Origin: Candidatus Krumholzibacteriota bacterium
GTDB lineage: Bacteria; Krumholzibacteriota; Krumholzibacteriia; JAJRXK01
Assembly (NCBI GenBank): GCA_029262065.1
Contig: JAJDAC010000015.1
Coordinates: 1-64,000, forward strand
Direction: 5' to 3'
Length of the DNA: 64,000 nt
Part shown: positions 37,804 through 50,157 of the stretch, one piece after another
How the letters are laid out: each line of letters opens with the position of its first letter
How positions within the stretch are numbered: the first letter of the stretch is position 1
The notes under the pieces: generated by a model
The model's database searches: none
What the model was told of the DNA's origin: nothing
Seen by the model: only the letters and a program-made list of their open reading frames with translations
Translations under genes and position numbers: made by a program

Positions 37804-38016
37804 ATGACAGACAGGAAGAAACTCAAGCTGAACAAGGACACCCTGAGAGACCTCACATCGGAGGATCTGCAGAGAGTGTTGGGAGGGACCGAGGGTCAAC
37901 CAGCTCCGACCAACAGAAACCCATGTGCCCACCCAGGCGAGGATCCAAGCGATGGGACGTGCACTGCAGTTCCCACGGATCAACCGTGCGTTGAAAACCC
38001 TTCGACCAACTGCTAG
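37804..38016 (+). CDS. lanA: Lanthipeptide precursor A2
   Basis: The 70-residue precursor starts at the second of two ATGs: GGAG lies 6 nt upstream of 37804 but abuts the ATG at 37798, and this start also gives a 28-residue leader, the same length as in A1. The leader carries LKLNKDTLRDL and SEDLQRVLGG. The 42-residue core has Cys at 13, 25, 34 and 42 and eight Ser/Thr (1, 8, 21, 24, 26, 30, 39, 40), ending STNC like the SANC of A1. Many Pro residues may limit ring patterns. It lies between the kinase and the exporter genes. Confidence 0.85.
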   Translation: MTDRKKLKLNKDTLRDLTSEDLQRVLGGTEGQPAPTNRNPCAHPGEDPSDGTCTAVPTDQPCVENPSTNC

Positions 38017-38029
38017 GTCCAAGGTCACC

Positions 38030-39028
38030 ATGAGGCCATCCACGGAAACGACATCCCCGCGCGATCGCGAGGCGCCCGACGGCACGCCGCTGGGCAGCGC
38101 GCTGTTCCGCGATCGCGCGCGGCGGGCGGCGGAAACGCCCCGTCACGAAGGCGACCTGCTGCGCCTGTCGCCCAGTTGGGCGCGTAGCGTGTACTGGGTA
38201 CTTTTGGGAATGTCGCTCCTGCTTATCGTGGGTGGTCTGGTGGGCCGATCTCGTGAATTCGCATCGGGACCCGCCGTGTTGCGCGTTGGCAACGGCCTCC
38301 GCCTCACGGCCCTTGCGGCGGGGACCGTCGAACGCCTCGATGTAATAGCGGGTGAACACGTTGTGGCTGGCCAATCCCTGGTGCAATTCCACTCCGAGGA
38401 TGAACGCAACGTTCTGTCACACCTGCAAACCGAATTCGACCTGCACCTGGTACATCTGCTGCGTGAACCAGGTGACAAGATGGCCCGGAATACATTGGCC
38501 GGCCTGCGCGCTCAACGAAAGCTCGCCGAGGCACGCCTCGCCGAGCGTACGCTGGTCGCGCCCACCGAAGGCTGGGTCCAGGACGTCCGCATCCGACCCG
38601 GACAGCGGTTGGCGGCGGGCGAGACCGTAGTGAGCTTGGTGGCGCGACAAGAACAGCACACTCTGATGGCTTTCCTACCCGGCGAGTTTCGTCCGCTGCT
38701 CAAGGTTGGCCAACCATTGAACCTGATTCCCGTGGGCTATCCGCACTCTCGAATTCGCATGTCAGTCGAAAGCGTGCAGGAGGAAGTGGTGACCGCGCAG
38801 GCGGCCCTCGCGCCCCTGGGCGTTGAATGGCAGAACGCGATTCAACTACAAGGCTCGGTAACCGTCGTAACCGCCACCCTGCCGGCCACGACGTTTCAAG
38901 CGGACGGGCAAGAGCGGCCGTTGTACAGCGGAATGCAGGGCAAAGTCGAAGTGTGCGTGCGCGAACAGGCGATTCTCCTGACCCTCATTCCGGGACTCGA
39001 ATCGTTGGTGGAGAGGTTCCGAAACTAG
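38030..39028 (+). CDS. HlyD-family membrane fusion protein (plus arm)
   Basis: The 332-residue product, read from ATG 38030, 13 bp after precursor A2. It has a short cytosolic tail, one transmembrane helix (~54-72; VYWVLLGMSLLLIVGGLVG), lipoyl halves (LAAGTVERLDVIAGEHVVAG and LVAPTEGWVQDVRIRPGQRL), a short hairpin, and a beta-barrel with a LIPVGYPHSRI segment. The end is joined to the exporter start (TAGATG). It should bridge the C39 ABC transporter to an outer-membrane channel for peptide export; no TolC gene is in the window. Confidence 0.85.
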   Translation: MRPSTETTSPRDREAPDGTPLGSALFRDRARRAAETPRHEGDLLRLSPSWARSVYWVLLGMSLLLIVGGLVGRSREFASGPAVLRVGNGLRLTALAAGTVERLDVIAGEHVVAGQSLVQFHSEDERNVLSHLQTEFDLHLVHLLREPGDKMARNTLAGLRAQRKLAEARLAERTLVAPTEGWVQDVRIRPGQRLAAGETVVSLVARQEQHTLMAFLPGEFRPLLKVGQPLNLIPVGYPHSRIRMSVESVQEEVVTAQAALAPLGVEWQNAIQLQGSVTVVTATLPATTFQADGQERPLYSGMQGKVEVCVREQAILLTLIPGLESLVERFRN

Positions 39029-41272
39029 ATGCGCGCGGAAAGAGCACAACCACCCCCTTCTGACGGGCAAGGCCTCAAGGATCGCTTTCCGGCTCTGCGC
39101 CGACTCGAGCGCCACCGACCCCGTCGCGTTCCCGTGGTCGAACAGAATCACGTGGCCGATTGCGGCCCCGCCTGCCTTGCCGCGGTATTGCGATACTTCG
39201 GCAGCCAGGTACGACTGCCCGATGTCCGAGATCAGTTTGGCGCTGGACGCGACGGCGTAACCGCGCAGTCATTGCTCGACGTGGCCAAGCGGCACGGTTT
39301 GCTGGGCCGCGCGGTTCGTATGGAACTGGAAGATCTGAAGCTGCTACCGCAAGGCACCATTTTGCACTGGGAAATGAGTCACTTCGTGGTTCTCGATCGC
39401 GTCCGGCGCGACGGCATAGACATCATGGATCCCGCCCGTGGACGCCGGCACGTAGGGGCCAAGGAACTCGACGACGCCTTTACCGGAATTGCTCTGCTGT
39501 TCGAGACCACGCAGCGGTTCGCTCCCGTCAAAGGTGATCGCTCGCGCGTGCTGCAATACGTGAAAGAACTGCTGCTTCATTCGGGGCTCATCGGCCGAAT
39601 CATGATCACGTCGCTACTCATCCAGGTGTTCGCGCTTGGGTTGCCCGTTCTGACCGGGCTCATCGTCGACCGCGTGGTCCCTCATGGTGACACCGACCTA
39701 CTGCGCGTGGCCATAGGCGGCGTGGCCATGATCACCGTCTTCAGCCTTCTATCGAACCTACTGCGGTCGTACCTGCTCATACAGCTCCAAACCAATCTCG
39801 ACATGCGCCTGACCCTGAACTTCGTCGATCACATGATGCGGCTCCCGTTCGAGTTCTTCCAGCTGCGCCAAACGGGCGATCTGCTGATGCGACTGAACAG
39901 CAACACGACCATCCGCGAGATGCTGACTTCCACGGCGGTTACCGCCCTGCTCGACGGCGGACTGGTGTTCACCTACGTGGTGGTGCTCATGCTGGTGCAT
40001 CCGGCGCTGGGGTCTGTGGTGCTGGGCCTGGGTTTCCTACGCGTGGCGGTCTACGTTGCGACTCGCCACCGGTATCGCGATCTCACTACCGAATTGCTTC
40101 AGGCTCAGGCCGCTTCGTCGGACTACCAGGTCCAGATGCTCGAGGGCATCGAGACCATCAAGAGCACGGGGGCCGAGGGCCGCGCCGTGCAGCACTGGTC
40201 CAACCTGTTCGTGGATGTCATGAACATCTTGCTCGATCGGGGACGGCTGAACGCCGTCGTCCAGTCGACCATGGGTGCCCTTTCCGTTGCATCGCCCCTG
40301 GTTCTCCTGGGCTACGGCGCACACCTGGTACTGACCGATCAACTCAGCCTGGGTACCATGCTGGCCATGAACGCTTTGGCCGCCGGCTTTCTCACTCCGT
40401 TGTCGTCGCTAGTACAGACGGGTCTGAAACTCCAGACTCTGGGAAGCTACGTGGACCGCGTGGATGACGTACTCTCGAAGGAACCCGAACGCGGCGCCCA
40501 GGGAGCGCGTACCGCACCCGACCTGCTGGGAACCATCGAACTGAAAAACCTGTCGTTTCGTTATTCAGACGCAGGACCGTGGGCGGTGGACGACGTGTCG
40601 GTGGAAATACCATCGGGTTCTCGCGTGGCCGTGGTCGGGCGCAGCGGCTCAGGCAAGTCCTCGCTGGCGCGGTTGCTGGTAGCCCTGTATCAACCGGAAC
40701 AAGGAGCGATCCTCTACGACGGCCTGGACCTGCGCGACCGCGACGTGGATACGATCCGGCGTCAGATCGGCTTCGTTCCCCAGTTTCCGTTCCTGTTCGG
40801 CGCATCGATTCGAGACAACATCTCGCTTACCGACCCCGACGCACCGTTGGAAACCATCGAACGCGCCGCGCAAATGGCTTGTATCCACGATGAGATCGTC
40901 CAGATGCCGCTGCACTACGAAACGCCGGTCGCCTCGGGTGGCGCGTCGCTGGCTGGCGGGCAGTGCCAGCGCATCGCCATGGCTCGAGCTCTGCTTCGAC
41001 GTCCGCCGATTCTGGTGCTCGACGAAGCCACCAGCAATCTGGACGCGATCGCCGAACGGAAGATCCACGAGAACCTCAGCAGTATCCAATGTACCCAGGT
41101 CATCATTGCCCATCGCTTGAGCACCGTGGTCGACGCCGATCTCATACTGGTAATGGACCACGGGAAGGTTATAGAACGCGGCACCCACGACGAACTCCTG
41201 GCCCGTCGTGGCTCCTACGCCAACCTGTTCGAGAACCAGATGAAGGGGGTTCGCGATCGGTCGGCCGAATGA
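39029..41272 (+). CDS. lanT: C39-peptidase-containing ABC exporter (PCAT)
   Basis: The 747-residue transporter has three parts. An N-terminal C39 cysteine peptidase (~35-150) shows Q39, C45 (NHVADCGPACL), H118 (SHFVVLD) and D134 (MDPARG). A six-helix ABC_membrane region follows (~185-465). The nucleotide-binding domain (~515-735) has Walker A GRSGSGKSS, signature LAGGQCQR, Walker B ILVLDEAT and the H-loop IIAHRL. It should cut both precursors after the double Gly and export the modified core. It starts immediately after the HlyD stop. Confidence 0.9.
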   Translation: MRAERAQPPPSDGQGLKDRFPALRRLERHRPRRVPVVEQNHVADCGPACLAAVLRYFGSQVRLPDVRDQFGAGRDGVTAQSLLDVAKRHGLLGRAVRMELEDLKLLPQGTILHWEMSHFVVLDRVRRDGIDIMDPARGRRHVGAKELDDAFTGIALLFETTQRFAPVKGDRSRVLQYVKELLLHSGLIGRIMITSLLIQVFALGLPVLTGLIVDRVVPHGDTDLLRVAIGGVAMITVFSLLSNLLRSYLLIQLQTNLDMRLTLNFVDHMMRLPFEFFQLRQTGDLLMRLNSNTTIREMLTSTAVTALLDGGLVFTYVVVLMLVHPALGSVVLGLGFLRVAVYVATRHRYRDLTTELLQAQAASSDYQVQMLEGIETIKSTGAEGRAVQHWSNLFVDVMNILLDRGRLNAVVQSTMGALSVASPLVLLGYGAHLVLTDQLSLGTMLAMNALAAGFLTPLSSLVQTGLKLQTLGSYVDRVDDVLSKEPERGAQGARTAPDLLGTIELKNLSFRYSDAGPWAVDDVSVEIPSGSRVAVVGRSGSGKSSLARLLVALYQPEQGAILYDGLDLRDRDVDTIRRQIGFVPQFPFLFGASIRDNISLTDPDAPLETIERAAQMACIHDEIVQMPLHYETPVASGGASLAGGQCQRIAMARALLRRPPILVLDEATSNLDAIAERKIHENLSSIQCTQVIIAHRLSTVVDADLILVMDHGKVIERGTHDELLARRGSYANLFENQMKGVRDRSAE

Positions 41273-41294
41273 CACCCATGAATGCACATTCGCC

Positions 41295-44200
41295 GTGGTA
41301 CGCACCCCCCTACTGCCGGCGAACGCGTTTCTCGAAGAGATGGCACCGGCAGGAACGTACGAGGCCCGGCGCGAGGTTGCGGTGCGGCGCATGCGCGAGC
41401 TGGTGGCGCGCCCTGACGTACGCGACGCACTGTACGTAGCCTCACCCGGACTGTTGAATCGACTGGACGCGTGGCTACAGAAGCCTGAACCGGGAACCGT
41501 GGACCTGGCCGTTACGCGGTACCTGGAGCGCATGTCCCTACGTTGTACGCCCTTCGGTCTGTTCGCCGGGGTCAGTGTGGCAGCGGTCGGACTCGACACC
41601 GCGCTCCGTTTGGGACCGGCAACCGAGTACGTTCGCCACACTCGACTGGATACTGGTTACCTGACCGAGTTTATCGAGCGCATCGCCGCGGACCCCGCGG
41701 TGCGCGCCGAGTTGTTGTTCCAACCCAACTCGAGCCTGTACCGAGCCGGGCGACGCCTCCACTACTTCGAGGCACGCCAGGGACCCAAGGGGCGCGGCTA
41801 CTTCCTGGTGGCCGTTGACGAAGACGAAACCCTGCGCGAGATGCTCGACCAGGCGCGCGACGGGGTACGGCTGGGCTTGCTGGTCGATGCGCTCGTGTCC
41901 GACGAGATCTCCACGGAAGACGCCGAAGCCTACGTCGACGAGCTCGTAGAAGCACAGCTACTCGTACCCCAGTTGGGTCCCACGGTAACCGGCTCTCATG
42001 CACTGAACGATGTGATCGATCAGTTGAAGGCAGTCCCCGCCACCGCCGACGTAAGCCGGGAACTCAAGAGCATTGTCCATGCACTGGCCCGCCTCGATAC
42101 CGCCGGAGTGGGCGTTGCAACCGACCAGTCTCTGGCCATCCAGGCGCGCTTGAAGGAACTCCAGCCCAAGGCCGACCCCGGGCGCCTGCTGCAGGTAGAC
42201 CTGACGAAGCCAAGTAGGAAGCTTCAGTTGGACGAAGCTGTCATCGACGACATCCAACGGTCCTTCGGCGTGCTTCACGACCTGTTTGCCGCACAAGTTA
42301 CCGATCGCCTGGACTCGTTTCGGCGGCAATTCCAGAGTCGATACGGCGACGCCGAACTGCCGTTGGTGGAAGTTCTCGACGAAGAAGTCGGTATTGGTTT
42401 TCGCGCGGCCCAGGGGCCGGTGGGCGAAGCAGCCCCGTTGCTGGCTGGGTTGCACTTGGCCGCTCCAACGGCCGACCCGAGCGTTTCCCGCAACGCTGTG
42501 GACCGCTTCCTCATGCGAAAACTCTGCGAAGCACTGAACTCGGGAGCCGTGGAGATCGAGGTTACCGACGCAGAGGTCGCCTCCGTCCGCGATCAACAGA
42601 CGGGCAAGCGTCTGCCACTACCCGATGCCTACGGCGTCATGGCCTGTGTGTGGACCTCTGTCGATGGCCACGAAGTAGCCATTCAAGGCGGCGGCGGACC
42701 CTCGGGGGCACGACTCCTGGCAAGGTTCTGCCCGCTCGACGCCCAACTGGACCAACACGTCAAAGAACATCTAAGGGCCGAGGAGGCTCTTCAACCCGCC
42801 AAACGATTCTTCGAGATCGTGCACCTGCCCGAGGGGCGAATGGGCAACGTCTTGGGCCGCACGGTGCTGCGCGACTACGAACTGACCTTTCTGGGCCGTT
42901 CTGGAGTCGAACCGGAACGCCAGTTGAACATCAACGACCTGCTGATCTCCATGCGGGACGACCGGATCGTGCTGCGATCGCGACGCCTGAACTGCGAGGT
43001 CGAACCCCGGCTAAGCTCGGCCCACAACGCGGCTCACCGATCTACGGGCGTGTATCGTTTTCTGGTGGAACTACAACAACAGGGCGTGATAACCGGCCTA
43101 CGTTGGAGCTGGGGCACTCTGGACGAGGCGCCCATGCTACCCCGGGTCCGTTACGGACGAACGGTTCTATCGCCCCAGCGCTGGAACATCCGGCTGGAGG
43201 AACTGGACTCGTTTCGCAACCACGACCCCGAGCCGTTCTACGAGGCCTTTCGTGGTTGGGCCAGCAAGCGCGGCCTACCTCGGCATTTCACACTGGTTGA
43301 ATCCGATCGCATGCTGCCCATCGACGTCGAAAATCCTCTCTCGGTCGAGGCCTTCTGGGACCTGGCTTGCAAGCGATCGACGTTCACGCTGGAAGAGTGC
43401 GTGCCGCCCCTGGATCGATGCGCGGCCACTGGGCCCGAGGGTCCGTTCGTGCACGAGCTGGTCGTACCGTTCGTGCGACGGACACCGTTGACTTCAGCAG
43501 CCAAGGGACGTCCGGTGGAGACCTCGAATGCGCGACGCCCGATCGGCAGTGATTGGCTGTACGCCAAGATCTTCTGCGGCAAAGCTGCGGCCGACCGCGT
43601 GCTGACTGATCATGTCGCCCCGCTGCAACGCGCCCTGACCGCACGGGGATTGACCGATCGCTGGTTCTTCATTCGATACGCAGACCCCCAGCCTCACCTT
43701 CGGTTGCGCATGCACGGCAACCCCGAGTCACTGACTCGCGAGGCATATCCCCTTCTGGTGGAAGCGCTATCGTCGCTACAAGCCGACAGAACCGTATGGC
43801 TGTTCCAACTCGATGCCTACGACCAGGAACTCGTGCGCTACGGCGGCGAGCAAGCGATGCCCCTTTGCGAGGAGATCTTCGCCGCCGATAGCGAAGCGGT
43901 TATCGAATGTCTGCGGCTGCTTCGTGGCGACGAGCATGCCGACACCCGTTGGAAAACCACGCTGCGCGGCATGGACGCGTTGCTGGAAGACTTCGGGCTG
44001 GACCCGCTGCTCAAGTATGCGCTGGCTGACCGGCTCAGCGCGGGCTTTCGCCGTGAATTCCTGCACGAACGCCTCGTGAAGAAGCAGGTCTCGAAACGAT
44101 TTCGGCAAGAGCGCGCTCAGGTGGAGTCGGCGTTGTCCAACAACGGCAGCATTCCTCAGGATATCGAGCGTAGCCTGCCACTGTTCGAGCAGCGTTCACG

Positions 44201-44447
44201 ACGCATCCAACCCGCGGTAGCCGCTCTCAAAGACCTGGAAGCAAGGGGCGTCTTGATCACACCCATGCCGGACATCGCCGCCAGCATGCTACACATGCAC
44301 GCCAACCGCATGCTCCGAGCCGCGGCCCGCGCGCAGGAAATGGTGCTGTACTCGATGCTCGCCGAACACCACGACTCGCAACTGGCCCGGCGCGGCATCA
44401 AAGGGAAAGAGCGGGAGCGTCAACTGAAGGCCCTGGATCAGTCCTAG
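41295..44447 (+). CDS. lanB: Full-length class I lanthipeptide dehydratase LanB
   Basis: The 1050-residue product joins an N-terminal Lant_dehydr_N glutamylation domain (~1-680; VRTPLLPANAF, RYLERMSLRCTPFGLFAGV) to a C-terminal SpaB_C elimination domain (~750-1040; GSDWLYAKIFCGKAAADR, DRWFFIRYADPQPHLRLRM). It is the complete NisB-type enzyme that dehydrates core Ser/Thr using glutamyl-tRNA. GTG 41295 is used because two upstream ATGs are out of frame. The gap after the exporter stop is 22 bp and a terminator follows. Both precursors probably share this one dehydratase. Confidence 0.92.
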   Translation: MVRTPLLPANAFLEEMAPAGTYEARREVAVRRMRELVARPDVRDALYVASPGLLNRLDAWLQKPEPGTVDLAVTRYLERMSLRCTPFGLFAGVSVAAVGLDTALRLGPATEYVRHTRLDTGYLTEFIERIAADPAVRAELLFQPNSSLYRAGRRLHYFEARQGPKGRGYFLVAVDEDETLREMLDQARDGVRLGLLVDALVSDEISTEDAEAYVDELVEAQLLVPQLGPTVTGSHALNDVIDQLKAVPATADVSRELKSIVHALARLDTAGVGVATDQSLAIQARLKELQPKADPGRLLQVDLTKPSRKLQLDEAVIDDIQRSFGVLHDLFAAQVTDRLDSFRRQFQSRYGDAELPLVEVLDEEVGIGFRAAQGPVGEAAPLLAGLHLAAPTADPSVSRNAVDRFLMRKLCEALNSGAVEIEVTDAEVASVRDQQTGKRLPLPDAYGVMACVWTSVDGHEVAIQGGGGPSGARLLARFCPLDAQLDQHVKEHLRAEEALQPAKRFFEIVHLPEGRMGNVLGRTVLRDYELTFLGRSGVEPERQLNINDLLISMRDDRIVLRSRRLNCEVEPRLSSAHNAAHRSTGVYRFLVELQQQGVITGLRWSWGTLDEAPMLPRVRYGRTVLSPQRWNIRLEELDSFRNHDPEPFYEAFRGWASKRGLPRHFTLVESDRMLPIDVENPLSVEAFWDLACKRSTFTLEECVPPLDRCAATGPEGPFVHELVVPFVRRTPLTSAAKGRPVETSNARRPIGSDWLYAKIFCGKAAADRVLTDHVAPLQRALTARGLTDRWFFIRYADPQPHLRLRMHGNPESLTREAYPLLVEALSSLQADRTVWLFQLDAYDQELVRYGGEQAMPLCEEIFAADSEAVIECLRLLRGDEHADTRWKTTLRGMDALLEDFGLDPLLKYALADRLSAGFRREFLHERLVKKQVSKRFRQERAQVESALSNNGSIPQDIERSLPLFEQRSRRIQPAVAALKDLEARGVLITPMPDIAASMLHMHANRMLRAAARAQEMVLYSMLAEHHDSQLARRGIKGKERERQLKALDQS

Positions 44448-44563: not shown

Positions 44564-45628
44564 TCAGTTGGTCACCACCGGATACGCCTCCATGGGATCG
44601 GTAATCGGAGTGAACGCGTGGTCGTTGATGGTGTCGACGGTGTAGCAGAGGTCCTGCACACCGTACAGCAGGCTGTAGGTCTCATACCCCAGGATGTTCA
44701 GATACGCGGTGACCTGGGCGGAAGTCTGCCCCGTCCAGCAATACACCAGGATCTTCTTGTCCGTGGGCAGCGTCTTCAGGAATGAGTCGCTGGCCAGGTC
44801 GGCATTGGGCTGGTAACGAACCGCACCCGGAACGTGACCCGCGTCGTAGTTGGCCGCGGGGAAGTAGTTCACGATGAACCACTCGTTCTGGGTGTTGTCC
44901 ACGAACATGATGTCCCAAAGCGTGTCGTCGCTGATCTTGTTCCAGCCGGTGCCCATCTGATTCATCTGGCCCTTCAGGTACGCATCGGCGCGGGCCTTGA
45001 GAATCTCGACGGCCTGTCTCTCGCCCGTATCGAATTCGGGTGGAGTCGTGGCGGCGGGACGGGCGTTGTTGGTGACCTCGAACACCGGCACCCAATCGTC
45101 TTCCATGGGATAGTTCGGCGTGGTAGTTCCCAGCAAGTCGCTGTTTCCCTGGTAGGTCCATCCGTGCATGCCGAACTTCAGGTTGATCGCGTTGTAGCCC
45201 AGCTCCATGCCCAGCATGTTCAGCACCGACGTGGCGGTACTGGCCGTCTGGCCGGAGTAACACACGTTCAGGATGACTTTGTCGGTTGGAAACTGCGCTA
45301 GATTGTCGACCAGGTCGGCGAGCGCCATGTTGACCGCGCCTTCGATGTGACCGTTCGCATAGTGAGCCGAGCTTCTCCAGTCCACGATGAAATAGTCGTT
45401 CGTCAGATCGGCGTCGATCATCGTGGCGTACACGGCGGCCGCGTCGGTATTGACCGATCCTCCGTCGGGACGCTTGTAGGGAATGAAGTAGTCGTCGCCG
45501 ATGTCGGCAACCAAAGCGAACTCGTCGACCGCGGTCGGCGGGGTCACCGGATCGTCGTCGTCGCTACAAGCTGCCAATCCCAACACAAGGATGAGCGCCA
45601 TGAGCGAGAGGATCCACTTGCTTCTCAT
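44564..45628 (-). CDS. Lipoprotein with two rhodanese-like domains
   Basis: The 354-residue product has a lipobox (GLAACSDDDD). Two rhodanese-like domains follow: the first has the active-site loop NVCYSGQTAS, the second LVYCWTGQTSAQ, each with the catalytic Cys. GHIEGAVNMALADL and GHVPGAVRYQPNADL are the matching CH2A-like motifs. It should transfer sulfane sulfur or selenium at the outer face of a membrane. It is the third gene of an operon with TetR and the multihaem cytochrome selenoprotein, an arrangement resembling the Geobacter ext (selenite/tellurite reduction) loci. Confidence 0.85.
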   Translation of the reverse strand: MRSKWILSLMALILVLGLAACSDDDDPVTPPTAVDEFALVADIGDDYFIPYKRPDGGSVNTDAAAVYATMIDADLTNDYFIVDWRSSAHYANGHIEGAVNMALADLVDNLAQFPTDKVILNVCYSGQTASTATSVLNMLGMELGYNAINLKFGMHGWTYQGNSDLLGTTTPNYPMEDDWVPVFEVTNNARPAATTPPEFDTGERQAVEILKARADAYLKGQMNQMGTGWNKISDDTLWDIMFVDNTQNEWFIVNYFPAANYDAGHVPGAVRYQPNADLASDSFLKTLPTDKKILVYCWTGQTSAQVTAYLNILGYETYSLLYGVQDLCYTVDTINDHAFTPITDPMEAYPVVTN

Positions 45629-45713: not shown

Positions 45714-47042
45714 TCACCAGGTATCTGGTGAACCGTCCGGCACTATCAGATGGGCGTTGGCTGCGGCTTCCACCGCCGGCAGATCCGCCAGGTCCGAAGC
45801 CCTGAGGAACCAACCGTCCGGCCCATCTTCACTCTGATGACACGCCAGGTAGCAGTCCTGTCCGTCATCTACTTCGGTTCTCGCCGTCCATCTACGAATG
45901 TTGTGCGGCGAGGCGTACTTCCACGTGGGCTCGTCTTCGAACCCGCTAAGGTCGGTCAGACCCCACGAGGCGTAGGTATCGGTGGCCACGGGTACGTGGC
46001 GCAGTAGCACATAATCCTGGTCACGAAGGTCGGGGATCGGGTTCTTGCCGATCTTGAACGATGCATACGAGGCCTCGCTCAGGCCTTCGCCGGTATGACA
46101 GCCGTTGCAACTCTTGTAGGTCTGGCTGTGACATACCTGACAGCTCATGTCCTCGATATGCGCATCGTGATACGTGTTGGCCGCGACCGCGTCGGCGTGG
46201 CAATCCAGGCACGCCGGCATGGCCTCTACCTCGTAGCGGTAGGTCGGTCGGCTGCCGTCCCCGTGCATTTCGTCACCGGTGTGACAATCCATGCAATCCA
46301 TGGCCAGGGGGCGATAGTGGACATCGGCGCCGGCGTACTCGTTGGCGCCACGGTACTCGTCGCCGATGCGACTCCCGTGGCACGCCGTGCAGTTGCGGGT
46401 CATGTCCGGTCGCTTGTTGATGCGGTGTGCACTGACCAGACCGCCACCCACGTTCTTGGGCGAACTGATGTGGCAGTCTCCACAACTGGCGTGGCACGAC
46501 GAGCAATCGGATTCGAATCCGGCCAGAAGTTCGGGGTGCTCGTCGAACTCCAAACCCGATCGGGTTTCGATCATCCGAATGTAACCGGCTTGCGTGGTGT
46601 GGGCCGCACGTACGTACGAGGGTCCGTCGGCGTGGCAGTAGTCGGTGCAGGTGTTGTTGAACCCCTCACTGGGGTCCGCGCGCATGCCCGTATGAGCCTC
46701 ATCCTTGGATAGGATCCCCTCTTCGCCACCGTGACATCCAATGCAGCCTCGTTCGGCGTGCAAGCTGGCCAGGAAATCCTCGCCGTCCGCGCCGCCGATG
46801 AACACCTTGACCCATCCCTCCACCGGAGGGACAGAGCCACCTCAGCCTTCACCTTCGTCTTCGGGGAGTTCCGGATCCGGCACGACGGTCGCCTGCAACA
46901 TGGCACCATCGGTATGGCACCCCTCGCAAGTCGACTTGTCCAACACCGGAGCTTGCATATCCACTGGATCGTCTGAGCATCCAACGAGCAGGATCGTGAG
47001 AAGAACGAGGATGAAACCCCAGATGAGAATTCGATTCGACAT
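45714..47042 (-). CDS. Multihaem cytochrome c lipoprotein, selenoprotein (Sec67)
   Basis: Read through the TGA at 46844-46842, this is a 442-residue lipoprotein (lipobox LVGCSDD) with nine CxxCH motifs (first CEGCH before the TGA, then CIGCH onward) and two CxxxCH motifs (CTDYCH, CYLACH). The TGA lies in EDEGEG-U-GGSVPP, a Gly/Glu-rich linker, so the gene either encodes Sec or ends as a 66-residue lipoprotein followed by a headless cytochrome; no ribosome site precedes the second part. A SECIS-like hairpin begins 12 nt downstream. ATG 47042 has GGAGG 7 nt upstream. It probably moves electrons at the cell surface. TetR lies upstream, rhodanese downstream. Confidence 0.8.
46816..46830 (-). promoter_or_regulatory. 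SECIS-like hairpin of the cytochrome gene
   Basis: On the minus strand CCCTCC-GGT-GGAGGG forms a perfect 6-bp stem with a GGU loop. The loop starts 18 nt after the TGA. Geometry and loop match the other three elements in the window. Confidence 0.75.
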
Positions 47043-47054
47043 GACCACGCCTCC

Positions 47055-47708
47055 TCAGGTGGCGTATTCCTCGCGCTGAGGGCCCGACCGGCCCTGCTCA
47101 GCCTCTGGCGACGCCAGAAGCCCGCGCGCGAAGATGGGTACGTTATTGTTCACGACGTCGTGGGTGTCGTAGCAGACCCCATCGAGCCGGTTCCAGACCT
47201 GGGCATTGACGGCGCAACCAATGACCATGCCCACGTAGCATCGAGCTGTAATGCCGGGGTTGACCTTCAGCAAATCGCCGCTGTCGACGCGACGCTGAAG
47301 TTCGGAAGTAAGAAAGTCGATGTAGGGCCGACGGAACTTCTGCAAGAGCGGCTGGGCCTCTTCTTCGCCGGTCATCGATGTCAGCAACAGGAGCCGAAGC
47401 ACTTCGGGCTGGCGCCGAACCGTGGAAAGCAGATGTAGTGAGACACCGCGCAGCATGTCTTCGACGCGGAATTCCCGCCGAAACGCGGTCAGGTCCTCCT
47501 GGATCTTCAGGCTTTGGGAACGAGCCCCGATCACTTGTTCGAAGAGTGCGAGCTTGCTGGGGAAGTGTCGGTAGATGGCCGGAGCAGAGATGCCGACCTC
47601 GCGGGCCAAAGCCCGCATGGAGGTTCCCGTGTAGCCCGCGCTGGCGAAGTGTCGGGTGGCGACCTCGAGGATCTGCTCGCGTCTTTTCTTGCCTGCCGCT
47701 GCCAACAT
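47055..47708 (-). CDS. TetR-family transcriptional regulator
   Basis: The 217-residue product, read from ATG 47708 (GGAAGG eight nt upstream), has the TetR helix-turn-helix (RREQILEVATRHFASAGY, then GISAPAIYRHFPSKLALFEQV) and a helical ligand-binding C-terminus. Its stop lies 12 bp before the cytochrome start, so it heads the cytochrome/rhodanese operon and probably represses it. Effector unknown; a link to selenium, tellurium or another electron acceptor is inference from the neighbours. Confidence 0.85.
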   Translation of the reverse strand: MLAAAGKKRREQILEVATRHFASAGYTGTSMRALAREVGISAPAIYRHFPSKLALFEQVIGARSQSLKIQEDLTAFRREFRVEDMLRGVSLHLLSTVRRQPEVLRLLLLTSMTGEEEAQPLLQKFRRPYIDFLTSELQRRVDSGDLLKVNPGITARCYVGMVIGCAVNAQVWNRLDGVCYDTHDVVNNNVPIFARGLLASPEAEQGRSGPQREEYAT

Positions 47709-47853
47709 GACCAACGCCTTCCAGTGGGGCAAACGGTCGTTAACCTCGCCGGCAAGAAGGTTTGCATGAAGGCGCTTGGCCGCAACGAATCGGCGGCCGG
47801 ATATCACAAAACCAAAGTACGATAGTGTGACGGCAACAAGCAGGTGTGGCGGG

Positions 47854-47899: not shown

Positions 47900-49996
47900 C
47901 TACTTGGTGAGTATGACCTTGCGACTATCCGTCCCGTCGGCGGTTTCGGCCCGGACGATATAGGCACCTGAAGCCACGGAGACTCCTTGCCCATCCTTGC
48001 CGTTCCATGGCACGGAGTGCGATCCGGCTTCGCGCCACTCGTTGACCACGTCGCGAACCTTGCGGCCCTGAAGGTCGAAAACAGAGAGCCGCACCACACC
48101 GGGCTGCGACATGTTGAAACGCAGGCTCGTGCTGGGGTTGAACGGATTGGGAACGTTGGCCTCCAGATACACCGAACGCTCGGCCACCGCGGTCGCCGGC
48201 GGGGCATCGGTGGGGCAGGTCGCCAGGCTGCTACGAATCAGATCCCGGAACATCTCCGCTGCAACTCCAAGTCGATTGTCGGCGCTGGCCGCACCCACGG
48301 CTTCGTCGATGAACAGGCCAAATACGTATTCCTTCGAATTCACCGACGAGCCGTTGCACGTAGGCAAACTCACGTAGCCCGCGACCGAGCGATACTCTTC
48401 GCAGGTCGGCCAGCACAACGTGTAGCCACCCGGCTTCCAGGCCAACTCCACGTTGGCCCAGTAACTATTCGCGGCGTCGGGAATGCCCAGACTGGCCGCT
48501 TCCTGGTTCACGATGTCGCGCAGATCGGTGGTGAACCACCACTGCTCGGCCGGTGGCGTCGTGTCGCTCTGCATGAGGTCGTAGAAATCGTCGCGCGCGG
48601 TTCCATTGATCAGTACGCCCTGGGCCACTCCCTCGAAGAGCGAGGCGGCGTTTCGCAATGACAGCCGATTGCTGAGTGCAGGGTCACCATTGGGTGGCCC
48701 GCAACCCAGAGTGTGATTCAATTCGGTTTCGGTCATGCCCGCCCAGAAGTTTGCCGTGAGCTCGATCGCGCCGGCCCCGAAGCGGTCGGAGATTCCCTTG
48801 GTGGCCGCGTTGTCGGAGTACCACATCATACGCCGCAGCGTCTCGCGCAGGGTCTGCGACTCGAAGGGAGATCCTCCGATGGGACACGAGCCGTTCAGGT
48901 TCCCGGAATAGACCACGTTGTTGTCCAGATCGTCGTTACCGAAGTAGACCTCTCGCATCGCATGGAGATGATGGATGATCTTGAGCGTGCTGGCGGGCTC
49001 GAAGGCGTACGCGGTATTGAGCGAAGCGTGCACGGGACCACCTACCTCCTTCAGGTACAGTCCGGTGGCACCGTTGCTACCGTAGCCCAGATCCGAGGCG
49101 ATATCGGTCGTCAACGCGTTGGAGTTGTTGATCATCGCCACGGCGAACTTCTTGATGGAAAACGTGCCCGCGGGCTCCCAGTAGGGCTGGACATCGATGA
49201 TACGGGACCCGTGTTGCTCAATGAGCGCGCTTACATCAGCCGCCGTCTGACCCCACCACCACCACCAGTTGGTACCCTGCGGATTCGACTTCAGCACCAC
49301 ATTGAAATACCTCGTACCGTTGCTGAGGTAGGTATCAAGGTCGAGAATCCGAGCGCCGGTACTGTTCAACAACGAGGTGACGCCGCTGGCCGTCTGGCCC
49401 CAGTACCACCACCAGCTCGACGCATCGGCGCCGGTGTTGGATATCGTAACCACGTCGAAATAGCGCGTGGTACCTATTACGTAGGACTCCAGGTCCACGA
49501 TCCGAGCGTTGTTACTGCTGACAAGGCTGCTCACCTGGGCCTGGGTCTGCCCCACCCACCACCACCAACTCTTGGCGTACGATCCAGAATTTCGCACCAG
49601 GACGGCCGCGTACTGGGTCCCCCCTCCAATTACCGAATACCTTTCGAGGTCGATGATTCGCGCATCGTTCTCGGCGATGAAATTCGACAGAGAAGTCACG
49701 GTCTGGCTGGTCAACCACCACCAATCGGTTCCGTATTCGCCGCTGTTCTTGACGAACGCCGCGCTGAACAGCCAAGGACTGGAGGATTCAACCTCCAGGT
49801 CGACCAGGCGGGCGCCTTCGTCGTTGATCAAATCGGTAATCTGCGTGGCCGTCACGCCATGGAGCCACCACCACGCGGTAGGCGTACTCAGCGATCGTTC
49901 GATATCGGCCTGGGCCGGGGGCGGTCCAATGAGCGTCAGCAGCAAGACGAGGGAGATGGCAATGGACCCGATATATACCAACTTGTTTCTTTTCAT
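47900..49996 (-). CDS. Exported serine hydrolase with five Trp-rich tandem repeats and FlgD-like C-terminus
   Basis: The 698-residue product has a signal peptide (~1-30; ends PAQA). Five repeats of about 48 residues follow (~35-275), each with a WWW block, a GQT-type turn and an ARIVDLE motif, like the bacterial tandem repeat domain BTRD1 of polyglycine hydrolases. The catalytic part (~290-590) has EPASTLK (SxxK) and MWYSDNAAT (SDN), the class A beta-lactamase-like pattern. The C-terminal ~80 residues are an FlgD-like Ig module (VPNPFNPSTS, GRKVRDV) with a tail typical of sorted surface proteins. It may cut a peptide or ester substrate outside the cell. Confidence 0.8.
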   Translation of the reverse strand: MKRNKLVYIGSIAISLVLLLTLIGPPPAQADIERSLSTPTAWWWLHGVTATQITDLINDEGARLVDLEVESSSPWLFSAAFVKNSGEYGTDWWWLTSQTVTSLSNFIAENDARIIDLERYSVIGGGTQYAAVLVRNSGSYAKSWWWWVGQTQAQVSSLVSSNNARIVDLESYVIGTTRYFDVVTISNTGADASSWWWYWGQTASGVTSLLNSTGARILDLDTYLSNGTRYFNVVLKSNPQGTNWWWWWGQTAADVSALIEQHGSRIIDVQPYWEPAGTFSIKKFAVAMINNSNALTTDIASDLGYGSNGATGLYLKEVGGPVHASLNTAYAFEPASTLKIIHHLHAMREVYFGNDDLDNNVVYSGNLNGSCPIGGSPFESQTLRETLRRMMWYSDNAATKGISDRFGAGAIELTANFWAGMTETELNHTLGCGPPNGDPALSNRLSLRNAASLFEGVAQGVLINGTARDDFYDLMQSDTTPPAEQWWFTTDLRDIVNQEAASLGIPDAANSYWANVELAWKPGGYTLCWPTCEEYRSVAGYVSLPTCNGSSVNSKEYVFGLFIDEAVGAASADNRLGVAAEMFRDLIRSSLATCPTDAPPATAVAERSVYLEANVPNPFNPSTSLRFNMSQPGVVRLSVFDLQGRKVRDVVNEWREAGSHSVPWNGKDGQGVSVASGAYIVRAETADGTDSRKVILTK

Positions 49997-50157
49997 GGCC
50001 TTAACCGATCGGTACGAGAGCGACCCCCCGGTGCCGGGGAGCCGAGAGTGCATGTACAGAGGGAACGGACGAGGTGCGGCAACCGAACACTGCTTGCCGT
50101 GGTCCCCCAGCCACCTGTTTCATGGCGCAAACCAAAGGAAGAAACCGGGGAGACCGA

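Follow-up and report, generated by a model that had tools for sequence, protein, structure and literature searches.

The window analysed here, by which we mean the whole 64,000-nt stretch of contig JAJDAC010000015.1 from a Candidatus Krumholzibacteriota bacterium (GCA_029262065.1), carries a gene for a predicted multihaem c-type cytochrome lipoprotein, with a rhodanese lipoprotein gene directly downstream and a regulator gene directly upstream (Table 1). Both strands were read, and the cytochrome reading frame opens with an ATG at 47042 and closes with a TGA stop as codon 443. When the internal TGA at codon 67 is decoded as selenocysteine (Sec), the product comprises 442 amino acids, the N-terminus reads MSNRILIWGFILVLLTILLVGC and the immediate surroundings of the Sec are DEGEGUGGSVPPVEGW. 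The initial annotation had described a cytochrome interrupted by an in-frame TGA at these coordinates, which hold, and had left the minus strand unstated. It had also recognized a lipobox and one haem motif before the TGA and eight canonical haem motifs after it, all of which stand, but its haem total fell short through two overlooked CX3CH motifs (CTDYCH and CYLACH). Together with nine CxxCH motifs, these bring the window cytochrome to 11. The CTDYCH position is an ordinary CxxCH in relatives, and both CX3CH positions are CxxCH in most members from a second phylum; the family is therefore taken to have 11 haem sites.

Table 1. Features of the selenocysteine cytochrome locus within the analysed window
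Feature	Position	Strand	Basis
Predicted Sec-containing 11-haem c-type cytochrome lipoprotein	45714..47042	-	Translation; homologues in two phyla
Signal peptide and lipobox LVGC (Cys22)	46977..47042	-	Sequence; L-x-G/A-C type lipobox in own-phylum orthologues
Haem motif 1, CEGCH, the sole haem motif before the TGA	46914..46928	-	Sequence; invariant in alignment
In-frame TGA, Sec codon 67, within GEGUGG	46842..46844	-	TGA column in 16/18 first homologues and 47/47 aligned rows
Bacterial SECIS hairpin UCCCUCC-GGU-GGAGGGA	46815..46831	-	Folding; positional test; PMC13188914 constraints
Haem motifs 2-11 (eight CxxCH, two CX3CH)	45837..46745	-	Sequence; alignment
Tandem rhodanese-domain lipoprotein (LAAC lipobox), directly downstream	44564..45628	-	Pfam PF00581, E 2.1e-24
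TetR-type regulator, directly upstream	47055..47807	-	Pfam PF00440

Elsewhere in the window, positions 37925-44447 encode a HlyD-like protein, a peptidase-type ABC exporter and a lantibiotic dehydratase with both of its Pfam domains, which are likely a lanthipeptide modification and export set. The region 47900-50053 encodes a protein with numerous WWWW-type repeats, a serine hydrolase domain resembling beta-lactamases and a C-terminus of the FlgD type.

A contig search with the single window protein gave one relative only. Through a search of 58 relatives, we recovered homologues that in nearly every case contained exactly one in-frame stop, always TGA, and this codon aligned within a [DE]GU[GA]G motif in 16 of the first 18. 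Within its own phylum the family was present in 29 of 80 genomes, of which 25 had exactly one TGA, two lacked it and two had further stops in addition, whilst in the second phylum it occurred in 48 of 395 genomes, with exactly one in-frame TGA in 50 of 54 matches. A chance TGA is excluded by this recurrence, which amounts to 75 homologues across two phyla, all of those read carrying a [DE]GU[GA]G-type arm. The initial annotation had proposed a search for cytochrome selenoproteins with EGEGUGG-like linkers. Full-score homologues of ExtKL and ExtM suggest that the second phylum is Desulfobacterota; NCBI taxonomy places the taxon of one of its records in Myxococcota.

Downstream of the UGA, the window transcript folds into a hairpin of 7 bp with a GGU loop, its stem beginning at nucleotide 11 and its loop about 17-18 nt after the UGA (folding energy of the stretch, -20.5 kcal/mol). 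A GGU-loop hairpin had been noted here previously, with a 6-bp stem 12 nt downstream, and both of those figures are superseded. We took the constraints of the bacterial SECIS model from PMC13188914, and the window hairpin agrees with every one quoted there; a scan of the window against Rfam gave no match. Across the family, a hairpin (defined as five or more perfect stem pairs closed by a G[GU]-type loop, at the position expected) was detected in 47 of 55 Sec genes, against 3.0 expected from synonymous recoding, and at 2.6% of other positions in the same genes. The eight genes that failed this strict perfect-stem rule included several with a single mismatch. Most own-phylum relatives have their hairpin one codon further downstream than the window's family does, and in 12 with this placement 96.9% of cells pair, compared with 24-51% for slid partners, and one pair covaries from C-G to A-U. 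Minimum free energy z-scores are modest for many single genes, and the positional test is the discriminating one.

As is expected of a bacterial selenoprotein, protein sequence is conserved on both sides of the in-frame UGA and the source genome encodes SelA (E 5e-116) and tRNA-Sec (71.6 bits; ARAGORN anticodon tca). In the second phylum, selA scored above cut-off in 44 of the 48 carrier genomes. The gene was also observed within the same gene run as the Sec cytochrome in two genomes (G177 and G304). At L131 4340-11713 and L132 3011-10420, in two genomes, selA and the Sec cytochrome share a single run with genes for a pseudouridine-synthase-like protein, two rhodanese-like proteins and a 620-residue multihaem membrane protein. 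Sec was replaced in three orthologues, by Trp (G024, TGG), Gln (G044) and Tyr (G419), each with its haem motifs kept. None of the three has the hairpin, with two, zero and zero pairs at the site, respectively, and all three genomes retain selA, so that the loss concerns Sec in the protein and leaves the genome's machinery in place. A Cys version of the Sec position was not seen among the homologues in the two phyla. The initial annotation had named a conserved start after the TGA, with a signal peptide in relatives, as the observation that would speak against it; the relatives have no signal-peptide-like sequence there, and it is the signal peptide and haem 1 ahead of the TGA that are conserved.

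Profile comparison ranked ExtM first (99.7% probability), followed by the octahaem family TIGR04315 (97.5%) and ExtKL (92%), so ExtS, the comparison suggested earlier, is not the closest one; the nearest relative found is ExtM, and the known Sec cytochrome of those loci is ExtKL, a different family. ExtM (NF040943) is homologous over haems 2-11 (298 columns) and was the commonest NCBIfam match among 47 family members (best E 8e-13). The 12-haem ExtM belongs to the Geobacter extHIJKLMNOPQS selenite/tellurite cluster, which, like the loci described here, also encodes a rhodanese (ExtH) and a Sec cytochrome (PMC5877670). However, the window protein scored 29.4 bits against a model cut-off of 800, and three ExtM sequences that we read lacked both an in-frame TGA and a Sec arm between haems 1 and 2. 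Neither the window protein nor the family scored above the cut-off of any NCBIfam model.

ExtKL (NF040886), a predicted Sec cytochrome of Geobacter (PMC1914089, PMC5877670), is likewise a multihaem c-type cytochrome with one Sec and a rhodanese gene in its cluster. It differs in having five haems followed by Sec in GHxIPDGU, and its profile similarity to the window family is just 92% over 155 columns. Identity with ExtKL was rejected, as the window cytochrome had no NF040886 match at E up to 1 (cut-off 250 bits); the best match genome-wide lay at another locus and reached 26 bits. ExtKL-type genes in tandem, without any in-frame TGA, were also observed at two loci (G107:C12:96118-98740 and G283:C132:36179-38365), in a family described as lacking non-Sec homologues. 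Sec has been predicted earlier in octahaem TIGR04315 cytochromes too (PMC13188914), some of which carry it between haems 1 and 2. These proteins have eight haems, against 11 here, and an NNF[UC]I motif with Cys versions. Membership was rejected, since only two of the 47 members matched TIGR04315 (best E 1.7e-4), the cut-off of 375 bits was not reached and the proteins have 11 haem motifs. TIGR04315 octahaem genes were also encountered separately (L135, L139 and L140); many such genes of the second phylum contain a single in-frame TGA, within NNFU between haems 1 and 2, at the position where others have Cys. At one locus (L145 235-4044, G443) a separate Cys-type gene of that family directly precedes the Sec cytochrome and rhodanese genes.

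Sec cytochromes were therefore already known by prediction, and the 119-family selenoprotein catalogue of 2026 includes none of this architecture, a comparison that leaves an earlier mention possible in Haft and Tolstoy 2025 or the Olavius selenoproteome paper. The catalogue's 'Hypothetical protein DG', with motif GUxG, was considered and set aside, being described as without a conserved domain and with Cys homologues; our NCBIfam scan of 47 members gave no match to a DG model, provided that release 20.0 includes it. Given the content of the catalogue, the family appears new among Sec cytochromes in its architecture and in its near-constant rhodanese partner, and it is apparently a widespread selenoprotein family without an existing name.

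Across 47 aligned members, the invariant residues include the Gly-Sec of the arm, all haem His, nine further His and haem 1, and there is no invariant Cys outside the haem motifs. The Sec consequently has no conserved thiol partner, and the earlier placement of the residue in a Gly-rich linker and not in a CxxC or CxxU pair is strongly supported. The protein is almost certainly an exported, membrane-anchored 11-haem cytochrome whose single Sec sits between haems 1 and 2 on a flexible arm, GEGUGG. Counting nine non-motif His against 11 haems, at least two haems would have no invariant His on their other side. An AlphaFold2 model (pLDDT 75.9, pTM 0.76) had low confidence around the Sec arm (residues 39-50), consistent with a flexible arm. 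Its best solved fold was the octahaem tetrathionate reductase 1SP3, a middling match (VIA-align; Z 8.7, 267 residues, 4.2 A), and a Foldseek search returned no match at E up to 0.001. One Sec cytochrome (L079, G330) has an N-terminal extension and 17 haem motifs altogether.

The downstream rhodanese passes the PF00581 gathering score (86.3 bits, two domains) and has a Cys loop in both domains (CYSGQTA and CWTGQTS). This gene, absent from the initial annotation, offers the best pointer to function. Such a gene occurred downstream, within 1.5 kb, in 53 of the 55 family loci with enough sequence, spanning both phyla. One exception was the Gln variant, whose surrounding 16 kb yielded no rhodanese, and the other was one of two copies in a second-phylum genome (L059). 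In the Tyr variant, which occupies a long branch in the tree, the cytochrome and tandem rhodanese are fused into a single protein of 711 residues, indicating that the pairing can outlive Sec. A TetR-like gene likewise lies upstream at three other loci (L003, L009 and L144). In the tree, the window protein and G001 share a clade and the rows of the two phyla are mostly separate, with two second-phylum copies (L058 and L059) among own-phylum rows at 95/95 support; transfer or deep duplication is thus possible.

The downstream position in 53 of 55 loci, the fusion and the absence of a rhodanese beside the Gln variant count in favour of joint action, and we give roughly even chances to an explanation in which the Sec-arm 11-haem cytochrome works with the adjoining rhodanese lipoprotein. 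What we observed are the signals for Sec insertion, the number of haems, the conservation of the arm, the pairing with a rhodanese and a single fusion; the transfer, arm movement, substrate and direction that follow are what we infer. Thiosulfate, polysulfide or a selenium compound would most likely give rise to a rhodanese persulfide or perselenide, whose sulfane atom would pass to the selenolate of Sec. The arm so loaded would swing to a haem that has no protein ligand on one of its sides, whereupon the haem chain would reduce the adduct, releasing sulfide or selenide, or operate in the opposite direction. That the rhodanese persulfide supplies the arm with sulfane sulfur or selenium, which the haems then reduce or oxidize, seems to us slightly short of an even proposition. 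A little more tentatively, the two proteins may form a respiratory module in which the rhodanese loads a Sec carrier arm and the haem chain reduces or oxidizes the load, as a selenium-based, haem-wired counterpart of the SoxY arm. For the Sec arm, the nearest analogue is SoxY, whose carrier Cys is likewise a chalcogen residue set between glycines on a flexible arm (GGCGG; PMC6067878), although SoxY is an unrelated protein with a C-terminal Cys and no haem, and the comparison is one of analogy. Against the relay, the Tyr variant keeps its fused rhodanese without Sec, so the pairing is not strictly tied, the L059 copy has Sec without a rhodanese neighbour, and the protein, with 421 residues to 11 haems, amounts to about 4 kDa per haem. 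In PMC7096707 such values are those of pure electron carriers, catalytic cytochromes exceeding 7 kDa per haem, and by this measure electron transfer is favoured over catalysis.

The main rival to the relay is haem ligation by Sec, whereby the residue would be the distal ligand of, or lie beside, an active-site haem, the protein would directly reduce an oxyanion (selenite, tellurite, tetrathionate or similar) and the rhodanese would handle the product or supply selenium. We regard this as a credible but somewhat doubtful reading. The initial annotation had put forward haem or metal ligation and the binding of selenium/tellurium oxyanions, either of which may apply. Kinship to ExtM of the selenite/tellurite cluster and to the tetrathionate-reductase octahaem family, which also supplies the best fold match (1SP3), favours the rival, as do the NNFU members of the latter family and the haems without an invariant His partner; yet neither alignment extends to the Sec arm, the arm's Gly-rich setting, low in model confidence, does not resemble that of a fixed ligand, and the Cys versions of the octahaem family have no equivalent found in the Sec-arm family. 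Less probable still is a plain electron-transfer cytochrome whose Sec has a secondary role, be it docking, protection against oxidation or the sensing of selenium, with the rhodanese active elsewhere. Such a carrier fits the small protein mass for each haem and the haem motifs retained by the three Sec-less orthologues, but we think it unlikely given a Sec retained in 75 loci of two phyla with no Cys replacement seen, and a rhodanese partnership so consistent that it includes a fusion. That the protein is no selenoprotein, the TGA being a true stop, a sequencing error, the mark of a pseudogene or a UGA read as tryptophan, is highly improbable, for although one orthologue has TGG at the site, the TGA and its flanking protein are conserved in dozens of independent assemblies alongside SECIS, selA and tRNA-Sec, the same gene terminates with TGA, and a product begun after the internal TGA would have no export signal.

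Selenocysteine mostly acts as one partner of a thiol-like redox pair or as a metal ligand, for Mo, W or Ni. Its retention across two phyla in a flexible cytochrome arm, with no Cys partner or version seen and a rhodanese adjoining, points to chalcogen chemistry wired into respiratory electron transfer. Annotation with the standard code would end these genes at the TGA, and the signal peptide and Sec arm would consequently be missed. The cytochromes of the selenite/tellurite (ext) clusters become easier to interpret in the light of this family, and the pairing of cytochrome and rhodanese suggests a new way to join selenium chemistry with respiration.
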